Assembly: GCA_018970785.1 (NCBI GenBank)
Contig: JAGWVR010000004.1
Location: forward strand, 22,039-86,038
DNA: 64,000 nucleotides
Direction of reading: 5' to 3'
Origin: Planctomycetota bacterium
GTDB lineage: Bacteria; Planctomycetota; Planctomycetia; Pirellulales; UBA1268
A program made the translations under genes and the position numbers. This document shows, piece after piece, positions 11,660 to 62,052 of the stretch. Position 1 is the first letter of the stretch; every line of letters begins with the position of its first letter. The notes under the pieces were generated by a model. The model did not search any database and was not told where the DNA came from. It was given only the letters and a program-made list of their open reading frames with translations.

Positions 11660-12742
11660 GTGATGCTCCACGTGGTGATCATGGCGGGTGGATCAGGTAC
11701 GCGGTTCTGGCCCGCCAGTCGGGCGGCGCTTCCCAAGCAGCTGTTGCGCCTGGCCGGCGAGCGGACGCTGCTGCAGGCGACCGTCGATCGGCTGTCGGGT
11801 TTGGTCGCACCCGAGCAGGTGCTCGTCGTCACCGCCGAGCGCCTCCTGCCCACCGTGCGGGAGCAGCTTCCCGACGTGCCGGCATCGGCGTTGGTGGGGG
11901 AGCCGTGCAAGCGCGACACCGCCCCCTGCATCGCGCTTGCGGCCCTGCTCGTGTCGCGTCACGACCCCGAGGCGACGCTCGCGGTGATGCCCTCCGACCA
12001 TGTCATCAGCCCCGCCGAGTCCTTTCGGGGCGCGATCCGACAGGCAGCCGCTCTCGTCGACGCCCAACCGGCCCGGTTGGTCACGTTCGGCATCAAGCCG
12101 ACCTACCCGGCCGAGGTCTTCGGCTACATCCAACAGGGGGAAAAACTGGCCGACGCCGGGCCCGCCGTGGTGAACCGTGTCGCCCACTTCAAGGAGAAGC
12201 CGCCGGCGGCAGTGGCCAGGGAGTACCTCGCCGCCGGCACCTACCTGTGGAACGCCGGGATCTTCGTGTGGAAGGCGCGGACGATCATCGAAGCGCTCCT
12301 CGCACGCCAGCCGGAGTGCATGGAGCGGCTGCAGCGGGTCGTGGCAGCCTGGGATCGCCCCGACCGCGACGCCGTCTTCGCCCGGGAGTTCGCCGCGATC
12401 CACGGGATCTCGATCGACTACGCGGTTCTCGAGCACGCCCGCGACGTCGTCGTCATCGAGGCGCCATTCGGTTGGGACGACCTCGGCGGCTGGTCGGCGG
12501 TGGCCCGCCAGCGGGGCACCGACAGCGAGGGCAACACCGTCGTCGGCCGCCACCTCGGCATCGACTCGGTGCGGACGATCGTCCACGCCGACGGTGACCA
12601 TCTCGTCGTCACGATGGGGTTGAAGGATATGCTGGTGGTACACACTCCGGACGCCACGCTCGTCGCCGACCGAGCCCACGAGGAATCGGTCCGCCGCGTG
12701 GTGACGGAACTGGAGAAACGCGGGTGGCGCGACTACCTCTGA
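11660..12742 (+). CDS. manC: Mannose-1-phosphate guanylyltransferase
   Basis: VVIMAGGSGTRFWPASRAALPKQLL, EPCKRDTAPCIALAA, MPSDHVI, FKEKP, WNAGIFVWK. Confidence 0.94.
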   Translation: MMLHVVIMAGGSGTRFWPASRAALPKQLLRLAGERTLLQATVDRLSGLVAPEQVLVVTAERLLPTVREQLPDVPASALVGEPCKRDTAPCIALAALLVSRHDPEATLAVMPSDHVISPAESFRGAIRQAAALVDAQPARLVTFGIKPTYPAEVFGYIQQGEKLADAGPAVVNRVAHFKEKPPAAVAREYLAAGTYLWNAGIFVWKARTIIEALLARQPECMERLQRVVAAWDRPDRDAVFAREFAAIHGISIDYAVLEHARDVVVIEAPFGWDDLGGWSAVARQRGTDSEGNTVVGRHLGIDSVRTIVHADGDHLVVTMGLKDMLVVHTPDATLVADRAHEESVRRVVTELEKRGWRDYL

Positions 12743-13923
12743 CTGTCCGTGGACGAAGGCATCCATGGGCTTGGCTCGCTCGGGCGACCGCAGTCAACGC
12801 CGCGGGGTTTCCGGGGCGCCGGCGGCCGCATCCAGCGGGCGATCACCGTGTCCGCGGATGGCCAGACAGCGACGCTGGACATCCGCCGCCGGGCCGTAGC
12901 CGTGCCCTCCTGCGGGCGTTCGCTCTGCTGGTCGTCCTGCCACCGGGCCTTGCCGCCGCCCAGCCGGCCGCCTCCGCGATCGACGGCGCGACTCCCGATA
13001 CCCAGGTGTCCGTCGACGCCCGGTCGCGGCAGGCTGCCTGGACCGAGGGGGTCCGCCGCGCTGCCGAAGCGCTGGCCTGGTCCGATGAACGGATCGCCCA
13101 TGAATGGCGAATCCAGCGCCGCCCCGGGACCGACGATTGCCGCCTTCTCGATCCCCGCGACCGGGTCGTCATCGCCGGCCCGCGGGCGGCGTGCGACGAG
13201 CGGTTCGCCGACCTCGTCGCCACCGGCCTGATCCCACCGCACACCGGCCCGACGGTGATCGTTCTCCATGGCCTCGGCGAGGGGCGTTCGAGCATGACCC
13301 CCCTCGTCGAGCACCTCCGCCGCCACGTGACCGACACCGTCGTGACCTTCGGCTACGCCAGCCCGCGTGCCGGTTTGGCCGACCATGGTGCGGCGCTGGC
13401 CAGTGTCGTCGCGGCCCTTCCGGCGGGCGAGGGCGTGAGTTTCGTCGCCCACAGTCTGGGAAACCTCGTCGTCCGCCGCTGGATGCACTCGGCGCCGCCG
13501 GCCGAACTTGCCCGCGTCCGGCGGATCGTGATGCTCGGGGCTCCCAACCAGGGGTCGGAACTGGCGCGGCTGGCATCGCGCGTCTGGGGACTTCCCGCAC
13601 TCGCCGAAGGTGCCGCTAGGGAACTGGTCGTCGACTGGGAACGGATCGCTCCCGAGCTCGCCGTCCCGACCTGCCCGTTCGGGATCGTGGCCGGTGGCCG
13701 CGGCGACGAGTCGGGATTCAGCGCCCTGCTCGAGGGAGACGACGATGCCGTGGTCCGCGTCGCCGAGACACGGCTCGAAGGTGCCGACGACTTCCTCCTC
13801 GTGCCCGTGCACCACGCCCTGATGATGCGCCATCCGACCGTCCAGCGGGCGACGGTGTCGTTCCTCACGACCGGCCGCTTCGAGGCGACGGATGGGACGG
13901 CCCCGGAGCCGGTGTCGCGATGA
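12724..13923 (+). CDS. Secreted alpha/beta hydrolase, lipase-like (true start unclear; mature part begins after about 12890)
   Basis: Signal-peptide-like RALLRAFALLVVLPPGLAAAQPA, then VIVLHGLGEGRSSM, VAHSLGN (GxSxG) and MLGAPNQGS. The upstream part of the ORF overlaps manC and a dispersed repeat. Confidence 0.75.
   Translation: MARLPLTVRGRRHPWAWLARATAVNAAGFPGRRRPHPAGDHRVRGWPDSDAGHPPPGRSRALLRAFALLVVLPPGLAAAQPAASAIDGATPDTQVSVDARSRQAAWTEGVRRAAEALAWSDERIAHEWRIQRRPGTDDCRLLDPRDRVVIAGPRAACDERFADLVATGLIPPHTGPTVIVLHGLGEGRSSMTPLVEHLRRHVTDTVVTFGYASPRAGLADHGAALASVVAALPAGEGVSFVAHSLGNLVVRRWMHSAPPAELARVRRIVMLGAPNQGSELARLASRVWGLPALAEGAARELVVDWERIAPELAVPTCPFGIVAGGRGDESGFSALLEGDDDAVVRVAETRLEGADDFLLVPVHHALMMRHPTVQRATVSFLTTGRFEATDGTAPEPVSR
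12739..12865 (+). repeat. Dispersed 127-bp element, copy A (degenerate)
   Basis: Ungapped alignment to 27920-28046, about 97/127 identities by hand. Best-conserved blocks are CTGTCCGTGGAC, GGGCGACCGC, GCGGCCGCATCC and CGATCAC. Confidence 0.85.
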
Positions 13924-27919: not shown

Positions 27920-28046
27920 CTAGCTGTCCGTGGACAAAGCCCTCCGTGGCCTTTGTCCACTTGGGCGACCGCGGGAAACGCCGAGGGTTTCCCGGGCCGC
28001 CAGCGGCCGCATCCGGCGGCCGATCACTTTTTCCACGGGCTGCTAG
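27920..28046 (+). repeat. Dispersed 127-bp element, copy B (well preserved, with terminal inverted repeats and three internal hairpins)
   Basis: Termini CTAGCTGTCCGTGGA and TCCACGGGCTGCTAG are imperfect inverted repeats. Internal: GTGGACAAAG/CTTTGTCCAC, GGGAAAC/GTTTCCC, GGCCGCC/GGCGGCC. Second copy at 12739-12865. Confidence 0.9.
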
Positions 28047-61795: not shown

Positions 61796-61905
61796 GGCGC
61801 GGCCGAGGGAGCGGGACCTGCGAAGGCAAGGCTAGCAGACCGTGGAAGAGGTGATTCGGGCGAAGGATGCGGCCGAATCACCTCCGCCGGCGCCCCCGGG
61901 GGCGG

Positions 61906-62052
61906 CTACCGCATCGCCAGCCAGGCCAGCACGCCGAGCCACAGGACCTCGACGGCGGCGGCGATCGCCAGGCGCCACCGGGCACCGGACGGCGGCGGGA
62001 CCACGATCCCCGAACCGTCACCGTGCGTCGCCTCGGCACCGTCGGACACCAT
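61906..62052 (-). CDS. Putative 48-aa C-terminally anchored small membrane protein
   Basis: MVSDGAEATHGDGSGIVVPPPSGARWRLAIAAAVEVLWLGVLAWLAMR. Single hydrophobic helix at C-terminus in an otherwise empty gap. Confidence 0.35.
   Translation of the reverse strand: MVSDGAEATHGDGSGIVVPPPSGARWRLAIAAAVEVLWLGVLAWLAMR

Follow-up and report, generated by a model that had tools for sequence, protein, structure and literature searches.

The 127-bp palindromic repeat at 27920-28046 of the window, by which is meant the whole 64,000-nucleotide stretch of planctomycete DNA analyzed, raises the question of what kind of sequence it is, whether it is mobile and, if so, what moved it. The host MAG (G000) is a 3.38-Mb planctomycete assembly in 143 contigs and 69% complete; it was compared with G001, a congeneric sister species that is 97% complete, with G002, another congener, and with further relatives, and genomic contexts were read from fetched stretches (loci, L numbers) of these genomes. 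The first-pass annotation described a 127-bp element with imperfect terminal inverted repeats (TIRs) and three palindromes, occurring twice in the window, behind + strand genes, in copies that align without gaps at about 97/127. The alignment is end to end at exactly 97/127, and the quoted ends and palindromes are present. The repeat and both copies are real, but only 119 bp of it make up the mobile unit, since the CTAG at each outer edge belongs to a target-site duplication (TSD), and a third, truncated copy is also present (Table 1).

Table 1. Features of the element and its copies in the window.
Feature	Position	Strand	Basis or remark
Left TSD, CTAG	27920..27923	.	Direct repeat of 28043-28046; G001 empty site has 4 bases here
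MITE core, 119 bp, focal copy	27924..28042	+	TSD analysis and empty site in sister species G001
Left TIR, CTGTCCGTGGACAAAG	27924..27939	+	Conserved across subfamilies; resembles IS ends
Right TIR, reverse complement CAGCCCGTGGAAAAAG	28027..28042	-	Conserved across subfamilies; matches IS ends
Hairpin 1, arms GTGGACAAAG/CTTTGTCCAC	27930..27960	+	Pair C-G to A-U in 10/25 sequences
Hairpin 2, GGCGACC..GGGAAAC/GTTTCCC..GGTCGCC	27964..28001	+	Both sides changed in 8/14 pairs
Hairpin 3, CGGCCGC/GCGGCCG	28004..28022	+	97.6% of cells paired; 3 pairs changed on both sides
Right TSD, CTAG	28043..28046	.	TSD analysis, empty sites
Second, decayed copy	12739..12865 (core 12743-12861)	+	97/127 identity; covariance model 90 bits; G001 orthologous copy L342
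Third copy, truncated diverged relic	61832..61924	-	BLAST 84% over 44 bp; covariance model E 9e-4
			

The position behind + strand genes holds for both of the copies first described. The core of the focal copy begins 21 bp past the stop codon of such a gene, and the left tetramer of the second copy, CTGA, holds the TGA stop of gene 11663-12742, which is ManC-like (Pfam NTP_transferase and ManC beta-helix). This second copy is a relic, and several of its stem pairs are broken. The third copy retains an intact right end, TTCCACGGTCTG-CTAG, and is immediately preceded by the sequence GCGGTAG. The + strand folding of the focal copy beats all 200 dinucleotide shuffles (z -5.2 as DNA and -4.6 as RNA), and the core measures 118-119 bp in 108 of the 168 copies having both ends. 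The right end of copies from several genera, among them those at L060, L059, and L055, contains TTTATCCACA, a sequence similar to a DnaA box.

The first-pass annotation had proposed a search for target-site duplications and for empty sites in close relatives, and both were found. Across G000 and G001 the end tetramers are identical in 17 of 84 copies against 5.6 in shuffles, with none of 10,000 shuffles reaching 17, and for the 60 copies with CTAG at neither end the count is 12 perfect pairs against 3.0 shuffled; the perfect pairs include CTAG, CTAA, TTAA, GTAG, CTAC, CTAT, CTCG, CCAG, CTGG, and TCAC. The fourth bases of the left and right tetramers are linked (z 10.5, ends re-anchored), and this linkage together with the 4-bp repeats indicates a mobile unit of 119 bp with a 4-bp target duplication rather than one of 127 bp. 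Since base 4 alone is clearly correlated, the tetramers were also considered as parts of the element, an idea largely ruled out by two empty sites: L064 of G001 is filled with CTAC/CTAC and its orthologous empty site in G000, L296, reads CTAC, while the pair L137/L292 is filled with CTAG/CCAG and empty with CTAG. The element at L064 1501-1627 (G001 C40) lies within a predicted coding sequence, of which L296 is the intact orthologue and L295 an intact similar copy in G001.

The focal copy itself is missing from G001 (C16:12171-13846), where flanks 92-98% identical surround CCCG in place of the tetramer. Most empty sites between G000 and G001 likewise carry letters that are not CTAG-like (CATC, CCCG, CGTG, CCGA), a difference likely due to erosion of a disfavored CTAG; what speaks against erosion is the empty site L024, surprising in that three of its four bases differ although the flanks on both sides match perfectly. 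The element is therefore polymorphic between close genomes, filled and empty sites occurring in G000 versus G001. With TIRs, 4-bp TSDs, unoccupied sites in a sister species, a high copy number, and no coding capacity, it is a MITE, and the earlier statement that it contains no transposase holds for a core of just 119 bp, which has no transposase gene of its own.

The further genomic copies anticipated in the first reading are abundant. BLAST in G000 scored 40 of 168 candidate places, with copies 86-100% identical, and a covariance model for which 25 diverse copies were aligned returned 114 rows, or 110 after removal of four antisense repeats of listed places, a density of about 33 per Mb. The same model gave 122 rows in G001, 136 in G003, 144 in G008, and fewer elsewhere. 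Matches occur in 18 of the 24 members of the order searched, the strong ones being confined to the GTDB family of the host; outside it the model gives weak ones alone, in three families (G024, G026, G031). By BLAST, 19 of 39 relatives match, every one within the host family, and the 15 further families that represent the order gave no match. Among the matches listed for the exact 22-base left-end pattern, all are planctomycete MAGs, many of them from lakes; this pattern was not found in viral contigs (IMG/VR), and plasmids gave no match to the element. The carriers, uncultured planctomycetes mostly of fresh water, belong to a single lineage, and each genome has some 110 copies or more.

Within the host genome the preferred target is scarce. 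The loci of G000 hold 55 CTAGs in 321 kb against 204 expected from trinucleotides, a ratio of 0.27 or roughly fourfold depletion, making CTAG the most depleted palindromic tetramer there, all others standing at 0.73 or more. Element ends account for 25 of the 55, a share inflated by the choice of loci for holding elements. Although the window is 88% coding, 76 of 84 copies are intergenic, and where a left end faces a stop codon, 16 of 36 lie within 0-1 bp of it, the duplicated CTAG or CTAA, or an adjoining TGA, serving as or abutting the stop. Orientation relative to neighboring genes is mixed, and all orientations occur. Preference for CTAG in a genome poor in it, combined with loss of in-gene insertions, would account for this placement without any host function. 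Because the element prefers a tetramer that its host strongly avoids, its footprints make up almost half of all CTAGs in these loci, and many of its insertions are located on stop codons.

A candidate for the parent transposase comes from G002, where contig C187 ends inside a DDE_Tnp_1 (PF01609) transposase, read at L155:1330-2382, that scores 5.5e-38 with the NCBIfam IS1182 model and 1.7e-18 with an IS5 model, both under the equivalog cut-offs. The end of this IS, 49 bp past the stop codon, reads CTAG followed by CAGCCCGTGGCCCAAGTGG, against CTAG followed by CAGCCCGTGGAAAAAGTG at the right end of the element, the two being identical over CTAG-CAGCCCGTGG. Plasmid-borne relatives, mostly 42-46% identical to the G002 transposase, belong to ISs of 1446-1457 bp with the TIR CAGNSCGKTGAMRAAGTC, and nine of them are bounded by 4-bp duplications that are mostly YTAR, with identical tetramers in eight (TTTG, TGTA, TTAG, GTAG, CTAA, TTAA, TTAG, CTAA) and CTAA/CTAG in the ninth. 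Over the first 18 bases the right end of the element matches IS ends at up to 15 positions (P 5e-5 against random genome 18-mers); the left end, the weaker of the two, reaches 13/18 at best (P 0.0024). The hosts of the plasmid ISs are alphaproteobacterial and desulfovibrio, for example Sphingobium (pCHQ1, pTK2, pLB1), Novosphingobium (pP6W1/pP6W2), and Methylocystis heyeri. These ISs resemble the element in their ends and their duplications, but they are 1.45 kb long and autonomous, and no sequence in common with the element was found beyond the ends.

Shared ends, duplication length, and target make the IS1182/IS5-like group the best candidate for the mobilizing transposase, and from this agreement we infer that such an enzyme probably moved the element. 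PF01609 searches found no member in G000 (69% complete), G001 (97% complete), or G008, none of the element-bearing genomes yielded a complete cognate IS (that of G002 is cut short by the contig end), and no convincing IS-sized pair of element ends appeared in 1.3 Mb of loci. PF13586 (IS5/IS427 type) was absent from 22 genomes, and the locus L207, considered as the cognate IS on a weak DNA match, was discarded as there is no transposase similarity there.

Taken together, it is likely that the element is a non-autonomous 119-bp MITE mobilized in trans by an IS1182/IS5-group DDE transposase into YTAR-like sites. The transposase would bind both imperfect terminal repeats, excise or copy the element, and insert it at a YTAR-like target of 4 bp, with CTAG the most frequent choice, so that the target ends up duplicated. 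It would be supplied from elsewhere, the contig-truncated IS of G002 being a putative surviving cognate. With CTAG scarce and in-gene insertions mostly absent, copies would come to gather just behind genes, where a duplicated CTAG or CTAA may itself act as the stop codon. The three hairpins may matter during mobility, or template switching may keep their symmetry, rather than either serving the host.

The hairpins call for closer argument, as they could also be taken to mark a structured RNA, or a regulatory element of the 3' UTR, that is kept by the host and amplified by some other route. Folding is strong, many copies follow directly after stop codons, and the stems are preserved by compensatory changes between subfamilies, as the first reading had asked of additional copies: 91% of the cells of the three hairpins pair, compared with 34-52% when slid, and 60 stem cells are changed on both sides against 21 in shuffles. 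G007 and G017 have middle hairpins of a different sequence that are still palindromic; the terminal stem covaries poorly, as expected of protein-binding ends. In orthologues, moreover, the rate of change in stems is roughly half that in loops plus right end (p 4e-5). Resident copies give no indication of an RNA. Across 14 orthologous pairs of G000 and G001 the stems differ as much as the flanks (5.1 and 4.9%, against 8.9% in loops and 13.6% at the right end), and none of 43 changed stem pairs is a Watson-Crick swap. Single-change mismatches on the putative transcript strand are symmetric, 36 G-T and 44 A-C (p 0.43), where an RNA would favor G-U on the transcribed strand; Rfam has 0 matches in the window, and the copies take all orientations relative to genes. 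The chance that the element is such an RNA appears very small, and the lower rate of stem change may reflect weak constraint or base-composition effects. Covariation between subfamilies without compensation in resident orthologues suggests instead that the hairpins are maintained in transposing lineages and not for the host, and stem compensation seems to arise in those lineages, through selection during mobility or symmetry-restoring template switching. That the internal hairpins are functional transposition parts, for instance recognized or exposed as single-stranded DNA, and are selected while the IS1182/IS5-type MITE moves, is the stronger form of this proposal and strikes us as rather unlikely; if true, it would, together with the 43-bp and 105-bp forms described below, provide a mechanistic link between MITEs and REP-like palindromes. 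Covariation alone, when it is seen in a family of repeats, does not count as evidence of a functional RNA.

A REP/BIME-like palindrome, mobilized by a RAYT (an HUH tyrosine transposase), with a conserved foot tetranucleotide and processed as single-stranded DNA, would share with the element its palindromic units, 43-bp hairpin forms, tandem arrays, and position behind genes, and single Y1_Tnp genes occur in several genomes of the host family. GTAG/CGTC REPs with their RAYTs are likewise small intergenic palindromes found in clusters, and a tetramer able to supply a stop codon is also described for GTAG REPs (PMC3733652). The present element differs in having two TIRs and a TSD, its CTAG-type target being duplicated on both sides where a REP should show GTAG at one foot and no TSD. 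IS200/IS605-type insertion makes no target duplication. An association with RAYT was rejected as well: among 39 genomes searched, several element-rich ones lack PF01797, with no match in the element-bearing G000, G001 (97% complete), G023, G015, and G018, and the RAYT loci have no element nearby, none lying within the approximately 1.5 kb of fetched flanks of the family's Y1_Tnp genes. We see hardly any chance that the element is a REP of this kind. It is also improbable, if somewhat less so, that it is the MITE of another CTAG-targeting transposase, either IS701-like (DDE_5) or IS630/mariner. IS630 prefers CTAG, CTAG-type tetramers likewise border the IS701-like remnants of G001 and G003, and two IS-end copies in G001 touch the tetramer of an element. 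IS630/mariner elements, however, duplicate TA only, and the duplication seen here extends to the base that follows it (CTAC/CTAC, CTAA/CTAA), while the IS701-like ends, TACTACTACGTTAGC, are unlike those of the element; PF13546 (IS701 type) was dismissed as the parent, its matches being fragments only. As a separate observation, at L362 1-130 and at the end of L363 (G001 C53 and C79) TACTACTACGTTAGC ends exactly on the element-flanking tetramer, so that one rare target serves two kinds of transposon. Of the classes offered initially, MITE/REP-type element or structured RNA, the MITE is confirmed; the REP fails on the lack of a RAYT in several element-rich genomes and the presence of a TSD, and the RNA is unsupported, given no Rfam match, symmetric mismatches, and no compensation in resident copies.

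Among known systems, MITEPsy1 of Pseudomonas syringae is the nearest described relative in kind. It is 100 nt long, inserts at CTAG or YTAA with a 4-nt duplication, and is attributed to the IS5-family ISPsy2; like the present element, it is thus about 100 bp in size, with short imperfect TIRs, a CTAG/YTAA 4-bp duplication, and no coding capacity (PMC3189936). It has a different TIR, GGAAGGTCTGAAAAAGCC, six copies against about 110 here, and a host of another phylum (PMC3189936), and is not known to have a three-hairpin interior such as that of the present element. NEMIS, ERIC, and RUP are named among the classical, strongly folding bacterial MITEs (PMC3733652). Like the element, they carry TIRs, lack coding capacity, occur in many copies, and form hairpins. 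To our knowledge their sequences are unrelated to it, and it differs from them in that its interior is replaced between subfamilies yet stays palindromic. A literature search, with coverage that omits most subscription journals, found no paper describing the element. The family is new but belongs to a known kind. DNA alone here gives an almost full natural history for a family of bacterial MITEs, covering boundaries, target, empty sites, a likely parent IS, spread within one planctomycete family, and decay of resident copies.

The family also includes shortened, extended, and tandem forms. Hairpin 1 alone makes up the minimal 43-bp forms (L163, flanked by CTCA/CTCA; L205; L197); because its right arm forms a direct repeat with the right end, slippage can yield this form. 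An 80-bp form lacks hairpin 2, and forms of 144-150 bp have extra sequence, often one more hairpin. At the end of G001 C1, L151 1543-1851 is a tandem array of a 105-bp unit with 2.9 copies, 100% matches, and no right end, and L143 3256-3587 and other G001 contig ends hold perfect or near-perfect arrays of 102-105-bp units, again without the right end. Simple insertion does not explain the 105-bp arrays lacking a right end. Such arrays often coincide with contig breaks, and they break the assemblies of these MAGs.
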